From Eubacterium sp. (GTDB lineage: Bacteria > Bacillota > Clostridia > Lachnospirales > Lachnospiraceae), in assembly GCA_024681515.1 (NCBI GenBank), contig JAILAR010000129.1, forward strand, positions 1 to 59,609: 59,609 nucleotides of DNA. The letters run 5' to 3'. Positions 34,793-59,350 of the stretch are shown piece after piece. The position numbers and the translations under genes are program-made. Under the pieces are notes generated by a model. The model worked only from the letters and a program-made list of their open reading frames with translations, searched no databases and was not told the origin of the DNA. Position 1 is the stretch's first letter, and every line of letters begins with the position of its first letter.

Positions 34793-36553
34793 ATGATCAA
34801 ACGACTAAGTAAAGAAGTTGGCGAATTCAAGAAAGACTCACTCTTAACTCCGTTCTTTATGATCCTGGAGGTCATCTTCGATGTCCTGATCCCGCTGTTC
34901 ATGGGGAAGCTCATCGATCTGTCGGAGGGCGAAGACGTGGACATGGGGCGGATCCTGATGTACGGAGGCATCATGCTTCTGATGGCAGGCGGTGCGCTTT
35001 GGACCGGTATCATGGGCGGAAAATACGGCGCCCGTGCCTCAGCCGGTTTCGCGAGAAATCTGCGGCGGTCCATGTATCGCAACATTCAGACCTATTCCTT
35101 CGCAAATATCGATAAGTTCTCCACTTCCAGTCTGGTGACGCGTCTCACCACGGATGTGACGAACGTGCAGAATGCATATCAGATGTTGCTTCGTATGGCG
35201 ACCCGCGCGCCGTCCAATCTGATCATCAGCATGACAGTTGCTTTCACCATCAGTGCGAAGGTGGCTTTTGTCTACCTGGGTGCGGTGGTATTCCTGATCC
35301 TTATGGCATGCATCATCATTCCGAAGGTGACGAAGATCTTCAGCGAAGCATTTCCGAAGTACGATAAAATGAATGAGAGCGTACAGGAGAACATCACCGG
35401 CATCCGCGTGGTGAAGGGCTTTGTACGTGAAGAGCATGAGAAGAAAAAATTCGGCATCGCCAGCGGCATGATCTACAAGATCTTCTGCCGTGCAGAGAAG
35501 CTGATGGCAACCATCGCGCCGCTGATGCAGGGAACTGTGTATTTCAGTATCCTGATGGTAAGCTGGGTGGGCGCGAAGATCATCGTGAACAGCAACCAGA
35601 CGGAACTCACCACCGGAAACCTTACACAGCTGCTGACCTACTGCATGCAGATCCTCATGAGCCTTATGATGCTTTCCATGGTCGTGGTCATGATCACCAT
35701 GTCCGTACCCAGCGCGAAGCGTATTTATGAGGTCCTGAAAGAAGAAAGTGCACTGAAAAATCCCGAGGAACCGCTTATGGAGGTTCCGGACGGCAGCATC
35801 CGTTTTGATGATGTGGATTTCCGTTACAATGATACGTCGGAAGCGCCTGTGCTCCAGGATATAACTCTGGAGATTAAATCCGGCGAGACCATCGGCATCA
35901 TCGGCGGTACCGGAAGTTCCAAGACCAGTCTGGTGAACCTGATCAGCCGTCTCTATGATGTCAGTCAGGGGAAGGTTTACGTGGGCGGAAATGATGTCCG
36001 TTCCTACGATCTGAAGACGCTCCGCGACCAGGTGGCCGTGGTGCTTCAAAAAAATGTCCTTTTCTCCGGCACCATTTTGGAGAATCTACGCTGGGGCAAT
36101 CCCAACGCAACGTTGGAGGAGTGTCAGGAAGCCTGCAGGCTGGCCTGTGCGGATGAGTTCATCGAGAATTTTCCGCAGAAATACGATCTGATGCTGGAGC
36201 AGGGTGCGACCAACCTCTCCGGTGGACAGAAGCAGCGGCTCTGCATCGCCCGGGCATTGCTGAAGAAACCGAAGGTGCTGATCCTGGACGACAGTACCAG
36301 CGCCGTGGATACCACCACCGATGCAAAGATCCGGAAGGGTTTCCGGGAATTTATCCCCGAGACCACGAAGCTGATCATCGCACAGCGGATCTCCAGTGTT
36401 ATGGATGCGGACCGCATTCTGGTTCTGGAGAACGGCCGTGTCAGCGGCTTCGGAACCCATGAGGAACTGCTGGAGAATAATGCGATCTACCGCGATGTCT
36501 ACGAATCCCAGCAGGGTGGCAGTAAGGACTTTGACGAGGGAGGTGCGTTATGA
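34793..36553 (+). CDS. ABC exporter half-transporter, degenerate-site subunit
   Basis: 586 aa from ATG 34793, GAGG 9 bases upstream; an in-frame TTG at 34778 is rejected. Six membrane helices, then an ATPase domain with Walker A GGTGSSKTS (about 368-377) and LSGGQKQRL (about 473). Walker B reads LILDDSTS, with Asp in place of catalytic Glu, and the switch region reads IIAQRISS, with Gln in place of His. Both changes mark the non-hydrolysing side of heterodimeric exporters such as TM287. Its partner is the next gene, 87 bases downstream. Confidence 0.92.
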   Translation: MIKRLSKEVGEFKKDSLLTPFFMILEVIFDVLIPLFMGKLIDLSEGEDVDMGRILMYGGIMLLMAGGALWTGIMGGKYGARASAGFARNLRRSMYRNIQTYSFANIDKFSTSSLVTRLTTDVTNVQNAYQMLLRMATRAPSNLIISMTVAFTISAKVAFVYLGAVVFLILMACIIIPKVTKIFSEAFPKYDKMNESVQENITGIRVVKGFVREEHEKKKFGIASGMIYKIFCRAEKLMATIAPLMQGTVYFSILMVSWVGAKIIVNSNQTELTTGNLTQLLTYCMQILMSLMMLSMVVVMITMSVPSAKRIYEVLKEESALKNPEEPLMEVPDGSIRFDDVDFRYNDTSEAPVLQDITLEIKSGETIGIIGGTGSSKTSLVNLISRLYDVSQGKVYVGGNDVRSYDLKTLRDQVAVVLQKNVLFSGTILENLRWGNPNATLEECQEACRLACADEFIENFPQKYDLMLEQGATNLSGGQKQRLCIARALLKKPKVLILDDSTSAVDTTTDAKIRKGFREFIPETTKLIIAQRISSVMDADRILVLENGRVSGFGTHEELLENNAIYRDVYESQQGGSKDFDEGGAL

Positions 36554-36640
36554 CGAAGTCATATATTGAATCGCACCGACCGACGCGCCGCCGAGCGACA
36601 GCGAGGGGGCATTACATTGATTGTTGGGAGGTGAAGGCTG

Positions 36641-42171: not shown

Positions 42172-42900
42172 TTAAACGTTTTTTGATATTATCGTTGTAA
42201 AGTAGTTATCCGGCTTTTCTTTTTGGAGCTCTTCCAGGGAACGATATAGTATTTCGCCTTCAAGGCAGCAGTTTGTTGCACCGAATATGTTAAGTGGATT
42301 CTTTTTTGCCTCTTTAGATAGTTTTGAAAGAAGAGAGGGGATTTCTTTTCCCTGTTTCATATAGATACAGGTTGAATTGTTTGATGTTGAACTTTCTTCG
42401 CTCAAAACAAAATTGTTATCAGTCGGATCTGAAACGGGATTTATGATAAGGGATTCTGAGTGATATACAAGTGTTTGATCACAGGCTGCAGCAACTGCAA
42501 GAAAAGAAGGAATCCCGTTTATGATTTTAGTTTTATAACCACGATCATGAAGCAGTTTCTGAATTGGAGTAAAGCTGGAGTAGATGGTTGGATCGCCGAT
42601 TGTGAGATATGCTGTCATTTTGTTTGTATCGAGTTGAGCAGAAATTATGTCAACCAATCCTGAATATTCCGATTCTATATTTATAGAATCTTTAACCATT
42701 GATATATGAACTTCCATCAGTTTCTTCTGCAATAGTTTTTCCTCTGATAATATTCCCTGAAGAATGGACAGTGCTCTGGCACCGTCCGGATAGAAGAGAA
42801 CTTCACATTCCTGAAGCAGGTGATAAGCCTTGAGAGTGATCAATTCAGGATCTCCGGGACCCAGACCGATTCCATATAGACATTTTTCGTTATTGTTCAT
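42172..42900 (-). CDS. cbiL: Precorrin-2 / cobalt-precorrin-2 C20-methyltransferase
   Basis: 242 aa from the ATG at 42900; a TTG six codons upstream is possible. SAM-dependent tetrapyrrole methylase of cobalamin synthesis: YGIGLGPGDPELITLKA and YLTIGDPTIYSSF are characteristic of the C20 enzymes. Codon use is distinctly AT-rich compared with its neighbours. No other cobalamin gene is in the window, so it is an orphan here. The ribosome site is weak (GAAAGAG). The stop abuts the parS-containing palindrome. Confidence 0.85.
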   Translation of the reverse strand: MNNNEKCLYGIGLGPGDPELITLKAYHLLQECEVLFYPDGARALSILQGILSEEKLLQKKLMEVHISMVKDSINIESEYSGLVDIISAQLDTNKMTAYLTIGDPTIYSSFTPIQKLLHDRGYKTKIINGIPSFLAVAAACDQTLVYHSESLIINPVSDPTDNNFVLSEESSTSNNSTCIYMKQGKEIPSLLSKLSKEAKKNPLNIFGATNCCLEGEILYRSLEELQKEKPDNYFTTIISKNV

Positions 42901-43002
42901 TTTTACTGTCTCTTTCAATAATTTCTATAGAGAATGCGGGATTCCGAAGTTGTTGCTCTACGGGATCCCGCTTTCTTTGATTATTATTCTGATTTTGATT
43001 CT

Positions 43003-50644: not shown

Positions 50645-50703
50645 AAAGCCATGGTATGCGTAGCGTGCGCTATCACAGAACACTACGTGATCGGAGAGAA
50701 GGT

Positions 50704-53700
50704 ATGGGGAAAACTGAAAAGATAAAGAAGCCGGCGTGGACGGATCGGGTGCTTTTTCGCCCGACGATCCAGAACCTGCTTCTCATGATCCTTATGATGG
50801 GAGTCAATGTCGGAGGACATTATCTGGCGCTGGCTCTGACTTTGCCACTTTGGCTGGATACCGTCGGTGTGATGGTTGTGGCCATTCTGCTTGGACCGCT
50901 TGCCGGCGCCATCGTCGGCGGGCTGTCCGTCTTTCTGATGGGGCTGATCGACGGCTCTTCCTCCATTTACATCGTTATCGGTGTGATCGTCGGTCTGATG
51001 GTCGGATTCTTTTATCCTCGAAATAAGAAAAATGAGACGGGAAATGAATCCGGCAGCGGCAGCCGCCTTCTGGAGATCGTATCTCTGGCGATCCTTGTGG
51101 CGCTCTGTTCCACACTCTTCTGCATTCCCCTCAATATCAAATTATATGACGGCTATACCGGAAATGTCTGGGGCGATGCGCTTTACGACATGCTGTCCCG
51201 GTATCTGGATTCTCCGAAGCTGAACGCCTTTGCGGCGGAAGCTTTTCTTGATATTCCCGATCGTGTGATCTCCATGGGACTGTCCGTGCTCATCGTTTCT
51301 TTGCTGATGCATCTCAAATGGTTCCGGGGGACGCCGCATTCCCGTAATAAAAAATCCGGGAAACCAAAATCAGGCTCCGCAGCTTCGGCGCTTCTCCTGC
51401 TCCTTCTGGCCGGCGGAGTTCTTCTCGTGCGTCCGCTTGCATCATTTGCAGCAGCGCCCGCATCATCCCCGTATCATACCCCCACTCTTTCCGCCAACAA
51501 CTCCAACATCAACACTGACTATGAGACCGACTACGAAACCGTCGTCTACAACAAGGAATCCGGCATGCTGGCTTCGGAAGTCAACGCCGTGGCCCAGACC
51601 AACGACGGCTATCTTTGGATCGGAACCTATTCCGGACTCTATATGTATGACGGCGTAAAATTCTCCGAGGTGCATCTGGAGGAGCATATCCGAAATGTCA
51701 TGAGCCTTTTTGTGGACTCCAAGGGCCGCCTGTGGATCGGAACCAATGACAGCGGAGCGGTCTGCTTTGATCAGACACTGGGCAAAGCCACGCGCTACAG
51801 TACGGAGAACGGTCTGGCAGCGGATTCCGTGCGCACTATCGGAGAGGATGACCGCGGCAATATCTACATCGGTTCCGTACAGTATGTCTCCGTGGTCAGC
51901 CCGGAGGGTGCGCTTACGACCTATGATTCCTGGGAGAATATCCTGTATGCCATTTCCTTCGTGGATCTGGGAGGCGGTCTGGTGGGCGGCGTGACCAACG
52001 GCGGAAGCATCTTCCTGACTCGGGACGGGGAACTGCTCCAAACCTTTGATTATGAGAAAAATGAAGACGTGCAGTACCGGAAGCTCTGCTATGCGGACGG
52101 TCTGGTGTTGGCCGGTACCTCCGCCAGCTCCTTAGAGATCTTTCGTCTGGAAGGAGATGCTCTGGTCTACGAACGCAGTGTGGACATCGGGACACTCGGC
52201 TATGTAAACGAACTTCGGTATTCGAAGCAGAGCCGCGGCGTTTATTTCTGCTGTGAAAACGGCATGGGCTTTTATTCCACGGAGACCGGTGAGGTAAGCG
52301 ACCTGACACGGCCGGATTTCCATGGTGCGGTCAGTGATGTCTGCATAGACGGTCAGGGAAATATCTGGTTTGCTTCCAACAAGTACGGCCTTCTGAAATA
52401 CTCCCGCAGTCTCTTCCATAATCTGTTCCACAAGGCAGGCTTTTCGGCAGGGATCGTCAATGCGCTCTATCTATCCGATACTAAGCTTTACATCGGTATG
52501 GATCAGGGGCTGAAGATCATTGACACGGAAACCGAACAGGCGGTGACCGAGGCTTGGCAGCAAAGTCTGGAGGGTGACCGGATCCGTCATATCACACAGG
52601 ATTCCGAGGGGAATCTCTGGATCAGCACCTTCGGCAAGAGCGGTCTGGTTCGCATCGGCAAGGACCGGAAGCTGACGGACATTGACGCGGAAAATGGCTT
52701 CTTCCTCGGCGGAAAGGGCCGGTCCGTTCTGGAACTGTCCGACGGGCGTATGCTGATCGCAGGGCGTATCGGACTCTTCCTGTATGAAGATGGGAAGGTG
52801 ACGAAAAAGATCGGTGAGGGGACCGGTTTGGAGAACCAGACCGTACTGTCCATGATCCGGACGGACAGCGGCAGTGTGCTGGCTGGAACCGATGGCGATG
52901 GTGTGTATGAGATCGAAAATGACACCGTTTCCCGCCACATCGACAAGGCAGACGGTCTCGGCAGCGGCGTGGTCATGCGGGTCGTACCCTGCAGAGAAGG
53001 CTTCCTCTATGTAACCAGCAACGCGCTCTATCACGACAACCGTCAGAGCGTACGGATCCTGAAGAATTTCCCATACAATAATAATTATGATGTGCAGATC
53101 ACGGAAGACGGGATCTGCTGGATCACATCCAGCGCCGGTCTTTATACCGTGTCGGAAAAGGTGCTTCTGGCAGACGAGAAGTACACATGTACGCTGCTCA
53201 ACAATAACTGGGGACTTACAACGTCATTTACGGCGAATTCCTGGAATGTACTGGATCAGACGACCCTGTATCTCTGCTGCACGGACGGTATCCGAACCTT
53301 CCGGACGGACGGTTATGACAAGCTGAGCTCCCGCTATCAGATGCATCTTCTGAAAGCGGTGTTCAATGACGAAGAATTCTTTGTGCAGGACAGCGTGTTA
53401 AACCTTCCGGCAAAGCATGGACGTATCCTGTTCCATATCGCCGTGAACAATTACACCCTGTCCGATCCGCTGGTACAGTACTATCTGGAGGGAACAGGGG
53501 ACATGGGCACCACCTGCTACCAGAGCGAGATCACACCGCTGTCCTATACGGACCTGCCCGGCGGTGAGTACTATCTGCATATTCGCATTCTGAACGAAGT
53601 GACGGGGGATGTGGAGAAGGAAACCGTGATCCCGGTGGAGAAGGAAGCCATGCGCTATGAGTATATCAGCTTCCGGATCTACCTCTTCGTGGTTACGGCG

Positions 53701-54696
53701 CTCTTTATCATGTATGTATTCTTCCTGTTCCGTGAGTTCGTCCGTCGGGCTGCCCGGATCAGCGGTCTGCAAAGGGAAATGTCCACGGATCCCATGACGG
53801 GACTGCTGAACAAGGCCGGCTCCCACAAGGCGCTGGAGAATTGCTGCGCGAATGATACCGGTATCCTCATGATGATCGATCTGGACAGCTTTAAGCTGGT
53901 CAATGACCTTTACGGACATGACATGGGAGACAAGATCCTCATTCGGTTTGCGGAGCTGATCCGCGAGGCGACCCATGAGGGAGATATCTGCGGACGGCTG
54001 GGCGGTGACGAGTTTGTTGCATTTATGAAGGATACCCTGGACCGGGATGAGGTGGAACGTGTCACCCGTTATCTGAACCGGGAGATCGTGAAGTCCGCGA
54101 AGGAATACATGGGCGACGACATGAATATCCCACTGGGCGCGTCCATCGGAGCCGTGCGCGTGCCGGACGAAGGACGGGAATTTGAGAAGGTCTTCAAGCT
54201 GGCGGATATGGAACTCTACATCGTAAAGAAAAACGGGAAACATGGTTTCTCTCTCTACGAGAAGAAGGAGAGAGATGCTGCAGAAGAGGAAGGACCTGTC
54301 GACAAAAATAATCTGGAACAAATCAAGAAGATCATCGGGGAGCGAAATGTGGGACAGGGCGCTTACCTGCTGAATTTCGAACGTCTGCAGGTGCTTTATA
54401 AATTCCTTGCCAGAAATGACCTTGAAAGCGGAACGAAGACTGTGTTCCTGCGCGTCATTCCGAGAAGCGGAGAAGTTCCTGTCTCCGACGAGCTTCGGGA
54501 TTCCCTGGAAGAAGCGCTGGTTACAGGGCTGAACAGAAATGACTCCGTCTGCCGTTACGCAGGCAGTTTCTTCCTGCTTCTGCTCGGGCGAAGCCGCGAG
54601 GAAGCGGAAAAGGACGTTCGGGCCCTCGTGGAGGCTTGGCAGAAGGACGGCGGACACACGGATCTGCAGGTGGATTACGAATTTGACAAGCAGTAG
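50704..54696 (+). CDS. Beta-propeller sensor with GGDEF (diguanylate cyclase) output
   Basis: 1330 aa from ATG 50704. Order: a five-helix membrane region (about 20-205, with TLPLWLDTVGVMVVAILLGP, ECF-S-like), then a second export helix (about 225-250). An external Reg_prop beta-propeller follows (WIGTYSGLYMYDG, LWIGTNDSGAV, LWISTFGKSGLVRI), then a Y_Y_Y-type beta domain (LPGGEYYLHIRIL) and a membrane helix near 1000. The GGDEF domain (LGGDEF near 1100) comes next. The I-site position reads HEGD, not RxxD, so product inhibition is unlikely. The last ~130 residues look like a second, decayed GGDEF domain with RYAGSFFLLLLG. It probably makes c-di-GMP in response to an external ligand. Confidence 0.9.
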   Translation: MGKTEKIKKPAWTDRVLFRPTIQNLLLMILMMGVNVGGHYLALALTLPLWLDTVGVMVVAILLGPLAGAIVGGLSVFLMGLIDGSSSIYIVIGVIVGLMVGFFYPRNKKNETGNESGSGSRLLEIVSLAILVALCSTLFCIPLNIKLYDGYTGNVWGDALYDMLSRYLDSPKLNAFAAEAFLDIPDRVISMGLSVLIVSLLMHLKWFRGTPHSRNKKSGKPKSGSAASALLLLLLAGGVLLVRPLASFAAAPASSPYHTPTLSANNSNINTDYETDYETVVYNKESGMLASEVNAVAQTNDGYLWIGTYSGLYMYDGVKFSEVHLEEHIRNVMSLFVDSKGRLWIGTNDSGAVCFDQTLGKATRYSTENGLAADSVRTIGEDDRGNIYIGSVQYVSVVSPEGALTTYDSWENILYAISFVDLGGGLVGGVTNGGSIFLTRDGELLQTFDYEKNEDVQYRKLCYADGLVLAGTSASSLEIFRLEGDALVYERSVDIGTLGYVNELRYSKQSRGVYFCCENGMGFYSTETGEVSDLTRPDFHGAVSDVCIDGQGNIWFASNKYGLLKYSRSLFHNLFHKAGFSAGIVNALYLSDTKLYIGMDQGLKIIDTETEQAVTEAWQQSLEGDRIRHITQDSEGNLWISTFGKSGLVRIGKDRKLTDIDAENGFFLGGKGRSVLELSDGRMLIAGRIGLFLYEDGKVTKKIGEGTGLENQTVLSMIRTDSGSVLAGTDGDGVYEIENDTVSRHIDKADGLGSGVVMRVVPCREGFLYVTSNALYHDNRQSVRILKNFPYNNNYDVQITEDGICWITSSAGLYTVSEKVLLADEKYTCTLLNNNWGLTTSFTANSWNVLDQTTLYLCCTDGIRTFRTDGYDKLSSRYQMHLLKAVFNDEEFFVQDSVLNLPAKHGRILFHIAVNNYTLSDPLVQYYLEGTGDMGTTCYQSEITPLSYTDLPGGEYYLHIRILNEVTGDVEKETVIPVEKEAMRYEYISFRIYLFVVTALFIMYVFFLFREFVRRAARISGLQREMSTDPMTGLLNKAGSHKALENCCANDTGILMMIDLDSFKLVNDLYGHDMGDKILIRFAELIREATHEGDICGRLGGDEFVAFMKDTLDRDEVERVTRYLNREIVKSAKEYMGDDMNIPLGASIGAVRVPDEGREFEKVFKLADMELYIVKKNGKHGFSLYEKKERDAAEEEGPVDKNNLEQIKKIIGERNVGQGAYLLNFERLQVLYKFLARNDLESGTKTVFLRVIPRSGEVPVSDELRDSLEEALVTGLNRNDSVCRYAGSFFLLLLGRSREEAEKDVRALVEAWQKDGGHTDLQVDYEFDKQ

Positions 54697-54936: not shown

Positions 54937-55320
54937 GAAAAAACCATGCTACAAAGAAGACCGCACGATCAACATCCTGAATGCTTATCATGCGGTCTAC
55001 ATTTAATTATAATCGTTGGTTATTAAGCTTTCGCCAATAGTCTTTTTTGAAATTGTGTGGTGAAGAGAAAAACTCTTCTGTTCATGTATAACGACGGAGA
55101 CGATGTAGTAGGGCGAATGAGAGTCGTATTTGCCGAAATCACCAGCTTCGTCGATGATGCAGCTGAGTATTCTTTCTGGCATTTGATTACCTCGTTGAAA
55201 TGCTTAAGAAAACAAAAATGGCGCGGGATCCCCACGCCGTTTCGGTGGACCAGGGTCTTTCGACCAGCCCCTATCGGTTTCCCGATATTGATATCATACT
55301 ATATCATGGAATGGGTTTTG
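54937..55320. other. Decayed region with no supportable intact gene
   Basis: An AGACCGCA...TGCGGTCT hairpin (about 54959-54999) is terminator-like. After it, 55057-55323 has protein-like sequence split over two frames: the first reads VVFAEITSFVDDAAE, and shifting frame near 55160 gives FLAFDYLVEMLKKTKMARDP. That suggests a frameshifted relic whose family is not recognised. Confidence 0.35.
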
Positions 55321-55534
55321 TCAAGTGTAAGTCGGTAGATGTCTCCGTCCTGTAACCATAATGTCGGTCGATGCCAAATAATACCAATTCCCATTATATA
55401 ATAACCAACCCGTGTGCATATATCCTGATGAATTAAAATAATACCATTTTTCATCAATCATTTTCTAACCTATAGCATATGTTCCATCACTATAGTAATA
55501 TCTCCATATCATATTGTTAGGGGCGAGCGAAACA
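55321..55534 (-). pseudogene. Broken cell-wall-binding repeat gene
   Basis: Read on the minus strand, NNMIWRYYYSDGTYAIG is followed by an in-frame TAG where Trp (TGG) would be expected, then KMIDEKWYYFNSSGYMHTGW and LLYNGNWYYLASTDIMVTG, stopping at 55321. These are clear CW_binding (choline-binding-like) repeats. The point change and lack of a proper start mark a pseudogene. Its AT-rich codons differ from the intact protein at 12296, so it is not a simple copy of that gene. Confidence 0.65.
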
Positions 55535-55816: not shown

Positions 55817-56242
55817 TTATTCCTTTTTTCCTTTGTTCACATTGTCATAATACTCAATCAATGCGAAGACTGCGTTCTGCTGTTCCTTTGTGAGTTTTTT
55901 CATCTTTTCGGAGAATCCACTTGGTGTTCCGTCACTTAACCGCTGACCCTGTAACAACTCATTCAAGGAAATATCCAAAACCAGGCAAATGTGGTAGAGT
56001 ATCGTAATACCAGGATCTACAAGGCCTCTCTCAATCTCGCTGATATGTCCGTAGGATGATTCTATTTCATCCGCAAGATTCTGCTGTGTCATCCCTTTTT
56101 TATTTCGCTCCTGTTGTATCCTTGTTCCTATAAGTTTTTGTATCTCCCTCTTGCTGATTCCGATCCCGCCAATCACCTTATCATCGAACCGGCCTTTATC
56201 AGGTCGTACCACCCTGTTATTCCTTTTGCCGTCATTTTTCAT
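55817..56242 (-). CDS. XRE-family transcriptional regulator
   Basis: 141 aa, with GGAGG 7 bases before the ATG. Residues ~33-98 form a Cro/CI HTH (IGTRIQQERNKKGMTQQNLA, then SSYGHISEIERGLVDPGITI). A basic N-terminal arm precedes it, and a short helical C-terminus (EKMKKLTKEQQNAVFALIEY) suits dimerisation. It is divergent from the agr operon with two palindromes in between, so it probably controls itself, agr, or both. Confidence 0.88.
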   Translation of the reverse strand: MKNDGKRNNRVVRPDKGRFDDKVIGGIGISKREIQKLIGTRIQQERNKKGMTQQNLADEIESSYGHISEIERGLVDPGITILYHICLVLDISLNELLQGQRLSDGTPSGFSEKMKKLTKEQQNAVFALIEYYDNVNKGKKE

Positions 56243-56323: not shown

Positions 56324-56350
56324 ATAACACGTGTTATCGTGCTATAGCAC
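56324..56350. promoter_or_regulatory. Twin perfect palindromes between XRE and agrD
   Basis: ATAACACGTGTTAT (56324-56337) and GTGCTATAGCAC (56339-56350) are separated by one base, about 82 bases before the XRE gene and 200 before agrD. The centre spacing is about 14 bases, a layout suited to cooperative HTH dimers. Confidence 0.65.
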
Positions 56351-56549: not shown

Positions 56550-56702
56550 ATGAAAACAACATCGAAAGAGAACCTGGCAAAGAAAGTAGCCAATTGGCTG
56601 AAAAAAGACCTGCGTCTTAATGCCGGAGCCGCATCCAGCCCCCATTTCTACGAGCCGAAGGTCCCTGAAGAGTTAAAGATGTACCTGAAAAAAAATGATT
56701 AA
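56550..56702 (+). CDS. agrD: AgrD-like autoinducer peptide precursor (Ser-type ring)
   Basis: 50 aa from ATG 56550, GAAGGAAGAGG upstream. The N-terminal part is an amphipathic helix (KENLAKKVANWLKKDLRL), the middle holds the presumed signal (AASSPHFY), and the C-terminal EPKVPEELKMYL matches the conserved AgrB-recognition tail. By comparison with staphylococcal AgrD, the five-residue ring would be S-P-H-F-Y (residues 30-34), ending just before Glu 35. There is no cysteine in the whole peptide, so a serine lactone is predicted instead of a thiolactone. It overlaps agrB by 8 bases. Confidence 0.85.
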   Translation: MKTTSKENLAKKVANWLKKDLRLNAGAASSPHFYEPKVPEELKMYLKKND

Positions 56703-57264
56703 ACTTCTCTCATATAGAATTGCACACTGGCTGGAGAGGCATAATGCGATTTCATGTGAAGAAGAACCTCTGTATCGGTATGCGGCATTCAATGTCTTAT
56801 ATGCCGCTATACCGATCCTGATCATGTTGGTAATTGGCATGGTATTACATGTCATTTCCGGTACGATTCTCTTTATCGCCACATTCGTCGCTCTTAGGAA
56901 GTATTCCGGCGGTTTTCATGTTCAATCATTTAGGACATGCCTCTGCTTCAGTATACTGGTAGAGTTTATATTCATCCATCTTGCTTCTTATATAGACTAT
57001 GCTATAATTCTTATTCCACTCATCATGATTTCTTCGGTTTCACTGATTCGATTCAGTCCGATCCAGTCGGCAAGTCGTCCGTTATCCATTGATGATATAG
57101 TGTTTTGTAAAAGGCGAATTAAAATCATTCTTGTTTTCCTTTTGTTTTTTTGTTATCTTTTATGTATCACCGATCTGGAATCATTCGCCGCGTATCCGGT
57201 TTCAGCAACCGCCATGGTTGCCGTGTTTCAGTATCCTGCACTCATACATCATAGATGGAGATAG
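56695..57264 (+). CDS. agrB: AgrB-type peptide-processing membrane protease
   Basis: 189 aa. Cleaves and cyclises the AgrD precursor in the membrane. RKYSGGFHVQSFRTC carries the catalytic His 75 and Cys 82 with the same seven-residue offset as S. aureus His 77/Cys 84. About five to six membrane helices surround it. It starts inside the agrD stop (8-base overlap), giving coupled translation. Base composition is AT-rich compared with the rest of the window. Confidence 0.93.
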   Translation: MIKLLSYRIAHWLERHNAISCEEEPLYRYAAFNVLYAAIPILIMLVIGMVLHVISGTILFIATFVALRKYSGGFHVQSFRTCLCFSILVEFIFIHLASYIDYAIILIPLIMISSVSLIRFSPIQSASRPLSIDDIVFCKRRIKIILVFLLFFCYLLCITDLESFAAYPVSATAMVAVFQYPALIHHRWR

Positions 57265-57268
57265 TATT

Positions 57269-58594
57269 TTGACTTTTGCGTATATCCTAAACCATATACT
57301 CGAAGCGGTTGGAGTTTATGCATTCCTTTTTTTGCAATATCCGCATAAAAGAAAGGCATGGAAAGACTGGCTGATAATCCTTTCTTCCTATATCGTTCTA
57401 TATGGGATATACCAGTTTCAGAACCTGAACCTGAACATAGCCAGCATGCTGATTCTCTACGTCCCTCTATTTCATTATCTCACTTCCAACAGCTGGAGAG
57501 CTTCATTCAATGATGCTCTTATCATTTTCTCCATTATAGATCTGTCCGAACTAATAGTGGAGATATCATCCTATCTTTTCCAGAAAGATACTGCGTTTGA
57601 GTATGGCAGTTTCTCAGATTTTATTTTTGCATCACTAAAGGTGAAAGCGTTATTTGTACTTCTTTTGCTCTGTCTGATTCCCGTGATTAAGAACATCAGG
57701 AAAAAAACGCCCATGTTTCACGAATCGAATTTTATCACTGTATCGCTCTGTCTTTTAACCATGTCTTTGATAGCGATTCAGAATCTGGGATTCAGTACAA
57801 TACTGCAATCAAATCACCTTCCATGGATTTATGTTCTTCTCATGGCATTTGTCGTCTTCAGTGTAGTAGAGATTATACTGACCGTTCACTTACAAAAAGA
57901 ACATTCGCAGCTTATGGATGTACAGTCCGCTCTGCAGAGAAAAGAAGATGATAAGAACTACACTGCACTGGTTACTCAGTTAGACCAGGAACAGAAGGTT
58001 CTGATTCACGATTTCAAAAAGCATCTGCAAACAATCTCTTCCCTTGTGTCTAACCGATCATACAATGAAGCGCAGGCGCTTATTGAAGAACTGACAAGTA
58101 CACGCGCACTTTCCGCCGGTTCAGTTCTGACAAGGAACCGAACTCTAAGTGTTCTTCTGGCCCGTTACAAAGAGTTTTGTGGTGAACAGAATATAGATTT
58201 TGTAATCGATGTAAAAAACGCTAACCTGGCGTATCTTTCCCCGACTGATGTAACCTCTCTTTTTGCAAACCTGATCGATAATGCCATAGAAGCATGTAAA
58301 GCCTCAGACCGTGCTTATATTTCCCTTCAGGTTCATGCGGATCATTCCCGATCTTTAGACATCATTTCAATCATCAATACATGCGCGACCAATCCGACCT
58401 TTGACAGAAACGGATTTCTCTCAACCAACAAGGCAGACAAAGCCCGTCACGGATTTGGTATCAAGAGTATTCAACGTGTGATCGACCACTATCATGGAAC
58501 CATGGATCTTCAGTACACCGCAGAAGATTCTTTGTTTCAGATTACAATCTGTCTATATTCAGAGGTGCAAAATGATGAAAATAGTCATATGTGA
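57269..58594 (+). CDS. agrC: AgrC-type sensor histidine kinase (GHKL)
   Basis: 441 aa starting at TTG 57269, chosen because GGAG lies 8 bases upstream and only four bases separate it from agrB; an upstream ATG frame overlaps agrB and is rejected. Six to seven N-terminal helices form the peptide sensor. The kinase part has a coiled linker, LIHDFKKHLQTISSLV with the acceptor His (about 246), NLIDNAIEAC (N box) and GFGIKSIQRVIDHYHG (G box). It should sense the AgrD peptide and phosphorylate the downstream regulator. Confidence 0.9.
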   Translation: MTFAYILNHILEAVGVYAFLFLQYPHKRKAWKDWLIILSSYIVLYGIYQFQNLNLNIASMLILYVPLFHYLTSNSWRASFNDALIIFSIIDLSELIVEISSYLFQKDTAFEYGSFSDFIFASLKVKALFVLLLLCLIPVIKNIRKKTPMFHESNFITVSLCLLTMSLIAIQNLGFSTILQSNHLPWIYVLLMAFVVFSVVEIILTVHLQKEHSQLMDVQSALQRKEDDKNYTALVTQLDQEQKVLIHDFKKHLQTISSLVSNRSYNEAQALIEELTSTRALSAGSVLTRNRTLSVLLARYKEFCGEQNIDFVIDVKNANLAYLSPTDVTSLFANLIDNAIEACKASDRAYISLQVHADHSRSLDIISIINTCATNPTFDRNGFLSTNKADKARHGFGIKSIQRVIDHYHGTMDLQYTAEDSLFQITICLYSEVQNDENSHM

Positions 58595-59279
58595 TGACGA
58601 TAGCGACGTGATTAAAACCTTAGAGTTATCCATTCTTGCATACTTCAAGCGAAAAAAAATGGAGACACCGATTATCTCAACATTTACTTCTGCGGAATCA
58701 ATGATAGATGCCGGAGAATCATATGATCTTGCTTTTCTTGACGTGGAAATGCCTGGCCTCACCGGCATCAGTTCCATTCGAGAACTTCGAAATCACAATA
58801 AAAACCTTCTTGTTTTTATAGTCACAAGCCATGACACATCCTATCTTGATGAGGCATTGGAAGAAGGCATTTACCGCTATATGATGAAACCGGTAAATCC
58901 ACTACAGCTTCAGGTTAATCTTACAGCAGCCATCCGAAGGATGGGGACACAGAGCAGAAAGGTAACTGCTGAAACAAATCAGGGAATCATAACGCTTGAT
59001 ACCGATGAGATCATCATGGTATATACTGAGCGAAGAAAAACCTGGATCCGCACCACAGGTGAATCATATATATCCATACAGAATTTTCATTTCTGGGAGG
59101 AATCCCTTCCCGATTTTTCCTTTGCCGTTTCCCATAAAGGGATTTTGGTCCATTTAAAATATGTTCGAAAAATCGGTGAAAATCTGATCGATCTTACCGT
59201 TCCTGGGGAACCGGTCTATCTTTCAGTCCGAAACCGTGCCCTCTTCAAAAAAAAGTTTCTGCAGTACATGAATATCTGA
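58572..59279 (+). CDS. agrA: AgrA-type response regulator (LytTR DNA-binding)
   Basis: 235 aa from ATG 58572 (ATG 58575 equally possible), AGGTG upstream, overlapping agrC by 23 bases. The receiver domain has ICDDDSDV, the phospho-acceptor Asp 57 in LAFLDVEMPG, and the conserved Lys in MMKPVNPLQL. Residues ~130-235 are a LytTR domain (GIITLDTDEIIMVYTERRKT, then FAVSHKGILVHLKYVRKIGE). It should bind direct repeats upstream of agr-controlled promoters. A terminator follows. Confidence 0.93.
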   Translation: MMKIVICDDDSDVIKTLELSILAYFKRKKMETPIISTFTSAESMIDAGESYDLAFLDVEMPGLTGISSIRELRNHNKNLLVFIVTSHDTSYLDEALEEGIYRYMMKPVNPLQLQVNLTAAIRRMGTQSRKVTAETNQGIITLDTDEIIMVYTERRKTWIRTTGESYISIQNFHFWEESLPDFSFAVSHKGILVHLKYVRKIGENLIDLTVPGEPVYLSVRNRALFKKKFLQYMNI

Positions 59280-59318
59280 TCACGTCATTCAGTTTTTCGT
59301 CGATCCAGAGTGTGATTA

Positions 59319-59350
59319 ACGCATTCAATTTTGATTGGATGCGTTTTTAT
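59319..59350 (+). terminator. Terminator after agrA
   Basis: AACGCATTCAA pairs with TTGGATGCGTT (one wobble) and is followed by TTTAT. The group II intron starts directly behind it. Confidence 0.85.

Follow-up and report, generated by a model that had tools for sequence, protein, structure and literature searches.

An intact agrDBCA cassette with a cysteine-less signal precursor and a predicted serine-lactone ring in Eubacterium sp.

The window analysed here is a stretch of 59,609 nucleotides from Eubacterium sp. (Lachnospiraceae; assembly GCA_024681515.1, contig JAILAR010000129.1). It is contig C148 of a genome with 197 contigs (3.13 Mb). An intact agrD-agrB-agrC-agrA quorum-sensing cassette lies on its forward strand at positions 56550-59279. 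The agrD gene (56550-56702) encodes a signal precursor of 50 residues that matches the curated model TIGR04223 with 21.7 bits (cut-off 19). It is followed by agrB (56695-57264; PF04647, 106 bits), which encodes the membrane peptidase/cyclase with His75 and Cys82, both invariant in a six-sequence alignment. The sensor histidine kinase gene agrC (57269-58594, assuming a TTG start) includes a GHKL domain (PF14501, 82 bits), and agrA (58572-59279) encodes a response regulator with a LytTR DNA-binding domain (PF00072, Response_reg, and PF04397). All these matches exceed their cut-offs and all four frames are open. The genes are tightly packed: agrD and agrB overlap by 8 nucleotides, agrB and agrC are separated by 4, and agrC and agrA overlap by 23. 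The cassette has the gene products by which an agr system is recognised (AgrB with catalytic His and Cys, an adjoining AgrD, a GHKL-type AgrC and a LytTR-type AgrA). An earlier note, made from the sequence without database searches, had described a complete, tightly overlapped D-B-C-A cassette whose AgrB keeps its His/Cys pair, and this description holds throughout. A phmmer search for a solved AgrB structure returned none, with one match at chance level (E 0.88).

The ring region of AgrD reads NAGAA-S29-S30-P-H-F-Y-EPKVPEEL, with A27-A28 directly before S29. There is no Cys among the 50 residues, and the precursor therefore lacks the ring Cys of a classical thiolactone signal. The S-P-H-F-Y codons occupy 56637-56651 (+), and Ser30 is encoded by AGC, which a single base change would turn into the Cys codon TGC. 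The earlier note had pointed out this Cys-less peptide with S-P-H-F-Y before EPKVPEEL and had proposed an alignment of AgrD homologues with the ring position marked. The peptide is as described, with a second serine (Ser29) preceding S-P-H-F-Y, and in the alignment Ser30 falls in the column occupied by the ring Cys of the relatives. Cys-less AgrD of the same kind adjoin AgrB in other genomes. In addition, the agrD frames of two related loci, L047 and L048, differ by 4 synonymous changes over 29 sites against 4 non-synonymous changes over 121, although these numbers are small. For both reasons, agrD is not a chance frame.

The genome contains four agrB and four agrD genes, one pair per place, according to searches with PF04647 and TIGR04223. 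The three further agrB genes lie on contigs C183, C5 and C30, each with its own Cys-type agrD on the opposite strand (ring regions TCRNAWFQP, GCKKQWYQP and TCRNAWYQP, respectively). The C5 agrD scored 13.3 bits, below the cut-off, and was accepted on its motif and place; two still weaker matches (C62 and C50) were taken as chance. The earlier note had allowed that a Cys-containing agrD elsewhere might be the true partner of the window AgrB. This candidate is not supported: each agrB found is paired with its own agrD, and no unpaired Cys-type agrD was found in the genome. As a separate observation, a DDE_3 transposase (L004 1984-3231, 87 bits) is inserted in the agrB paralogue of C30.

Since Ser30 stands in the Cys column, AgrB keeps its His/Cys pair and the other agrB genes have their own Cys-type agrD, we consider it likely, with a probability of about 0.82, that this is an agr quorum-sensing system in apparent working order, with a ring closed through serine and a predicted Ser-lactone signal. 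The serine lactone proposed in the earlier note is thus supported insofar as sequence can test it. The steps of cleavage, thioester formation, lactone closure, export and signalling are those of the known agr pathway. By analogy with it, AgrB (His75/Cys82) would cut AgrD after Tyr34, and the new AgrD C-terminus would be held as a thioester on AgrB Cys82. Transfer to the Ser30 hydroxyl would close a five-residue lactone of S-P-H-F-Y, preceded by a short N-terminal tail that is perhaps AS-. Once exported and freed of its leader, the peptide would bind AgrC, which would phosphorylate AgrA; as a LytTR regulator, AgrA would in turn switch on agrDBCA along with other genes.

We surveyed related loci by scanning contigs with an AgrB alignment of six sequences and the single pattern [LI]RK[YF][ST]GG[FY]H. 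The survey comprises the best 80 of 100 stretches encoding an AgrB relative (a few loci share one genome) and leans towards the window AgrB because the loci were chosen by similarity to its clade. The Cys of the AgrB GGxH...C motif is present in 80/80 survey loci, GGxH itself being part of the scan pattern and the open reading frames (ORFs) having been picked by the motif. AgrD sequences were first extracted with a regular expression that demanded, ahead of [EQ]P, either one of C, S and T at position -5 or a C at -6, and loci missed by it were read by eye. To reduce the bias of this expression, a profile with a masked ring column was built on 60 AgrD of the -5 class and applied to all six frames; its other columns derive from the regular-expression set. 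At E 1e-10 or better this profile matches 65 survey loci, each of which has C, S or T at -5, and its weaker matches include shifted rings with C or S at -6.

The tally of the 80 loci is Cys at -5 in 45, Cys at -6 in 6, Ser at -5 in 16, Ser at -6 in 2, Thr at -5 in 6 and no adjacent AgrD in 5. Weak members were placed by eye (L105, Ser at -5; L111, Thr at -5; L117, Cys at -6; L114 and L119, Ser at -6), and the loci without adjacent AgrD were dropped from the counts (L113, which has a weak candidate about 2 kb away, L115, L116, L118 and L126). Among the 75 loci with AgrD beside AgrB, the ring residue is Cys in 51, Ser in 18 and Thr in 6, so that 24/75 carry a hydroxyl residue at the Cys position. 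The earlier note had called Ser rings a minority. This is true but understates their share in this AgrB family. Should about one-third of the family rely on Ser or Thr, the signals made with these residues would escape methods based on thiolactone trapping. The natural Cys/Ser/Thr swaps also provide pairs for learning how AgrB chooses its nucleophile.

Two other features of the survey loci are recorded here. AgrB is fused to a von Willebrand A domain in one open frame in L075, L080, L081, L085 and L089 (776-792 codons); in L075, the locus on which Pfam was run, AgrB covers residues 8-184 and the von Willebrand A domain 229-397. The agr locus of a record titled Alistipes (Bacteroidota), L097, lies near Roseburia-like loci in the AgrB tree, possibly through a binning error.

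The AgrB tree has 86 rows: the 75 survey loci, the window and 10 loci of its own genome and genus. The genus has 30 agrB places, of which one is the window, 6 duplicate survey loci, 10 are in the tree and 13 were left out because no AgrD was recognised or no AgrB ORF was picked (one of these, L136, has a Cys-type AgrD). The state, thiol or hydroxyl, changes 12 times on this tree, and at least 9 changes are forced by supported branches with the careful method; a quick tree gave 13 changes, with 4 forced for the Cys group. Several rows have long branches, which makes the precise number of changes uncertain. None of 200 bootstrap trees has a single change. Shuffled labels give 21.9 changes on average compared with the 12 observed, and the label is therefore also clustered. 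The window groups with L047, L048 and L049 at 100/99 support, with rings SPHFY, SGHAY, SGHLY and TPHYF, respectively (Ser, Ser, Ser and Thr), in which the His is kept. The ring Ser codons in 17 loci, including the window, are AGC or AGT in 12 and TCT or TCC in 5, and the ring Thr codons in six loci are ACN. Together, these sequence comparisons suggest that Ser and Thr rings are frequent among relatives of the window cassette and have arisen several times. Of the loci named here, L047 belongs to genome G002 (Lachnospiraceae, strain AC2029), L048, L049 and L107 are also from Lachnospiraceae, and L064 and L082 both occur in one genome, G023 (Eubacterium sp.).

The AgrB position of Ser78, three residues past the catalytic His, holds Ser or Thr in 23/25 hydroxyl types compared with 22/61 Cys types (Fisher p 1.2e-6; the best among the column/group tests listed, of 1073). 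The association is not significant in independent pairs on the tree (median p 0.5), and Ser78 as a specificity residue was kept as a lead only. A broader reading is that the ring atom in gut Clostridia acts as an evolutionary switch, in which lineages (the window being one) would pass repeatedly between Ser- or Thr-lactones and Cys thiolactones and so obtain chemically private channels, with AgrB tuned, for example, at the Ser/Thr after the His. We offer this tentatively and would not be surprised to see it fail. If it is true, Thr-lactones would represent a novel kind of signal chemistry.

A comparison of L047 and L048, loci of two sister species, made in register (which holds up to agrA), shows where such a cassette changes. 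Over the initial 800 bases, which take in the upstream DNA, agrD and the beginning of agrB, DNA identity is 0.95-0.98; it drops to 0.83-0.85 where the AgrC sensor is encoded and is 0.985-1.00 across the kinase part and agrA. At the protein level, AgrC identity is 0.70-0.72 at residues 101-200 and 0.98-1.00 from residue 301, and that of AgrA is 0.98. In agrB there are 25.5 synonymous changes over 142.5 sites and 21.5 non-synonymous changes over 433.5, and in agrA 1 over 159 and 5 over 546, respectively. Divergence is thus concentrated in agrB and the AgrC sensor, the AgrC kinase and AgrA being near-identical, and the two rings differ by one residue (Ala/Leu). The known agr specificity groups likewise vary chiefly in the signal-receptor part. 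The divergence of this one pair, which concerns relatives and not the window itself, would fit a live, co-diverging signal and receptor, as expected.

Among known systems, the autoinducing peptide of Staphylococcus intermedius has a five-residue ring and its genes are ordered agrBDCA, and the ring of GBAP, the signal of the Enterococcus faecalis Fsr system, begins with Ser-Pro like the ring predicted for the window. In S. intermedius/pseudintermedius, as predicted for the window, Ser replaces the ring Cys and the ring is a lactone; staphylococcal agr differs in its order agrBDCA with RNAIII, where the window has agrDBCA with an XRE-family regulator gene, and in its ring sequence. GBAP resembles the predicted signal as a Ser-lactone cut and cyclised by the AgrB-like FsrB, but it has a nine-residue ring and fsrD lies inside fsrB in another frame. 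Cys-type agrDB of Roseburia/Lachnospiraceae (for example L101 and L058) encode AgrD and AgrB homologues in which an equal distance separates the ring position from a QPKAP tail, and differ in the ring Cys; L101 also has a divergent XRE gene.

In reviews, a ring Cys is presented as the norm, with S. pseudintermedius/intermedius and GBAP mentioned as exceptions that form lactones (PMC12312760, PMC10482373, PMC3673130). S. intermedius, cited as a precedent in the earlier note, is indeed known but is not the only one: an AgrD-type Ser-lactone pentapeptide of Clostridium thermocellum has been confirmed by liquid chromatography-tandem mass spectrometry (PMC5322536). This precursor (Clo1313_2818) is, like that of the window, a clostridial AgrD, with the lactone confirmed there and predicted here; its agrD lies outside an apparent agr operon. 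Ser-lactone signals are already known, and the window system would add a further case. Less expected are the Thr-type precursors, the repeated switching and the linked XRE regulator. Titles and abstract starts in the open-licence literature yielded no report of a Thr-ring signal, no description of the repeated switching and no family-wide count of Ser/Thr AgrD, which is weak evidence of absence.

Several points weigh against a serine lactone closed by Ser30. S. aureus AgrB1 and AgrB2 are unable to process a Ser precursor (PMC10482373). In L118 (Paenibacillus), a small frame adjoining AgrB, not counted above and beyond the reach of the masked profile at E 1, has Gly at -5, which weighs against a universal C/S/T rule. 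The gene next to the cassette, for a choline-binding-repeat (cell-wall-binding) protein (55321-55473, -; PF19127), is broken by an internal stop. Finally, the C. thermocellum ring runs from S25 to F29 and leaves Tyr Y30 outside, one residue more N-terminal relative to Tyr than in the window (PMC5322536). Applied to the window, this arrangement would give a ring Ser29-Ser-Pro-His-Phe33.

Closure by Ser29 could take this form, with cleavage before Tyr34, or that of a six-residue ring, a size named alongside five-residue rings for clostridial and Listeria systems (PMC12312760), and Ser29 is present in L047, L048, L049 and L064 as well as in the window. However, Cys relatives of equal spacing have their Cys at the Ser30 position. 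Ser also occupies position -6 of most Cys precursors (ANSAS-C), and three hydroxyl types (L082, L107 and L088) have Ala there, so that this serine would be context and not nucleophile. The comparison favours Ser30 as the predicted nucleophile, and we regard closure by Ser29 as unlikely. The product could also be, or soon turn into, a head-to-tail (homodetic) cyclopeptide through an O-to-N acyl shift, as occurs in a tail-less lactone analogue of a Listeria signal (48% after 22 h at pH 7 and 37 C; PMC11297923). This route requires a ring without an N-terminal tail, and since Ala-Ser precedes Ser30 in AgrD we give it a low probability. That the cassette is degenerating, having lost its Cys and its function, is very improbable: the relic next to it and a group II intron shortly downstream of agrA would fit decay, but all four frames are open, S and T are the only replacements for C among clear AgrD family members, the Ser/Thr clade keeps the ring His across genomes at 42-46% AgrB identity to the window, and L047 and L048 vary as a live signal-receptor pair would.

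The earlier note had called the cassette AT-rich and had suggested transfer. The GC content of the four agr genes is 0.40-0.44, compared with a mean of 0.523 (standard deviation 0.034) for 33 long window ORFs, which bears out the first point. GC at third codon positions (GC3) is 0.41-0.42 in agrB, agrC and agrA compared with 0.621 (standard deviation 0.066), and 0.53 in agrD. Relatives of the window AgrB occur in 5/61 genus genomes at E 1e-17 or better (G000, G002, G036, G011 and G023) and in 14/61 at E 0.001; any AgrB (PF04647) is found in 19/61. The flanks of agr differ among relatives: homologues of part of the flanking gene at 50656-54696 (33-57% identity, possibly paralogues) lie away from agr in G002, G011, G036 and G023. 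Atypical composition, patchy presence and differing flanks are circumstantial points in favour of transfer. On the other side, L047, L048 and L049 likewise have an agr locus with more AT than the DNA around it, so that low GC may belong to the cassette, and the GC3 of agrA is ordinary (0.60-0.61) in L047 and L048. No mobility gene tied to the cassette, or other transfer vehicle, was found, and AgrB matches in plasmids (5 records), phage (1) and viral contigs (6 loci) reach only 27-32% identity. Horizontal transfer of the cassette is plausible. The AgrD profile had no match in the six viral loci; L158, an unannotated record (MT836121.1, Bacteriophage sp.), encodes AgrB with a Cys-type AgrD, SACAYIFHQPKMP. 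Elsewhere in the window, a TP_methylase gene (42175-42924, -) has the lowest GC3 of the 33 long ORFs, 0.33.

Upstream of agrD, and divergent from it, lies the gene for the XRE-family (HTH_3) regulator (55817-56242, -; PF01381, 43 bits). Between them are two perfect palindromes, ATAACACGTGTTAT (56324-56337) and GTGCTATAGCAC (56339-56350), which are candidate operators; 188/2000 single-base shuffles had at least one such palindrome and 8/2000 at least two, the palindromes having been noticed before testing. An XRE profile was trained on five regulators (window, L047, L064, L082 and L107), four of them from the survey loci themselves. It places an XRE gene no more than 1.6 kb upstream of agrB in 37/69 survey loci with enough upstream DNA, on the opposite strand in 35/37. 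The linkage is seen in 13/20 Ser/Thr loci and 24/49 other loci. The motif ACAGAA-N3-TTCTGT, with no more than one mismatch, occurs in 16/35 hand-listed XRE loci (0.025 expected in single-base shuffles) compared with 3/37 comparison loci, a set that includes four with an XRE match (L108, L111, L112 and L120); the enrichment is partly circular because several of these loci had served to define the motif. It is present with one mismatch in L101 and absent among the palindromes of the window intergenic region. From the linkage, the XRE regulator probably acts on the intergenic region shared with agrD. No report of XRE-agr linkage was found in the open-licence literature (weak evidence of absence). 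Such linkage suggests that this signalling system of gut Clostridia is under a further level of control. Sigma-70-like sites show no excess (11 compared with 12.9 in shuffles), and a search for AgrA-type direct repeats upstream of agrD gave weak pairs only.

In 6/30 genus loci (L001, which is a relic, L003, L004, L130, L140 and L145), representing two agr lineages, a choline-binding-repeat protein is encoded no more than about 1.5 kb from agr; among the survey loci, 3/80 have one at up to about 4 kb. These neighbours hint at a cell-surface output of agr. The genome itself has 166 choline-repeat matches, and this abundance alone may explain the adjacency. Longer choline-binding-repeat proteins adjoin agr in L047, L049, L003 and L004, and one of those in L047 has a weak CHAT-like match (17.5 bits, below the cut-off of 24).

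Downstream of agrA is a terminator-like hairpin (59318-59345, +), in a region with 7 terminator-like sites compared with 3.2 in shuffles. The contig ends shortly afterwards in the group II intron (Rfam RF02001, 59437-59608, 149 bits). Between 54700 and 59609 there is no RNAIII-like Rfam match. A DUF3800-XI RNA match (55223-55271, -) is followed by a short frame, within 55003-55271, which we take to resemble the start of a DUF3800 protein; Pfam gave no match on 55006-55182, and the DUF3800-like frame is probably a relic. A GA-cis RNA (RF02987, 64 bits) lies at 36535-36620 (+).

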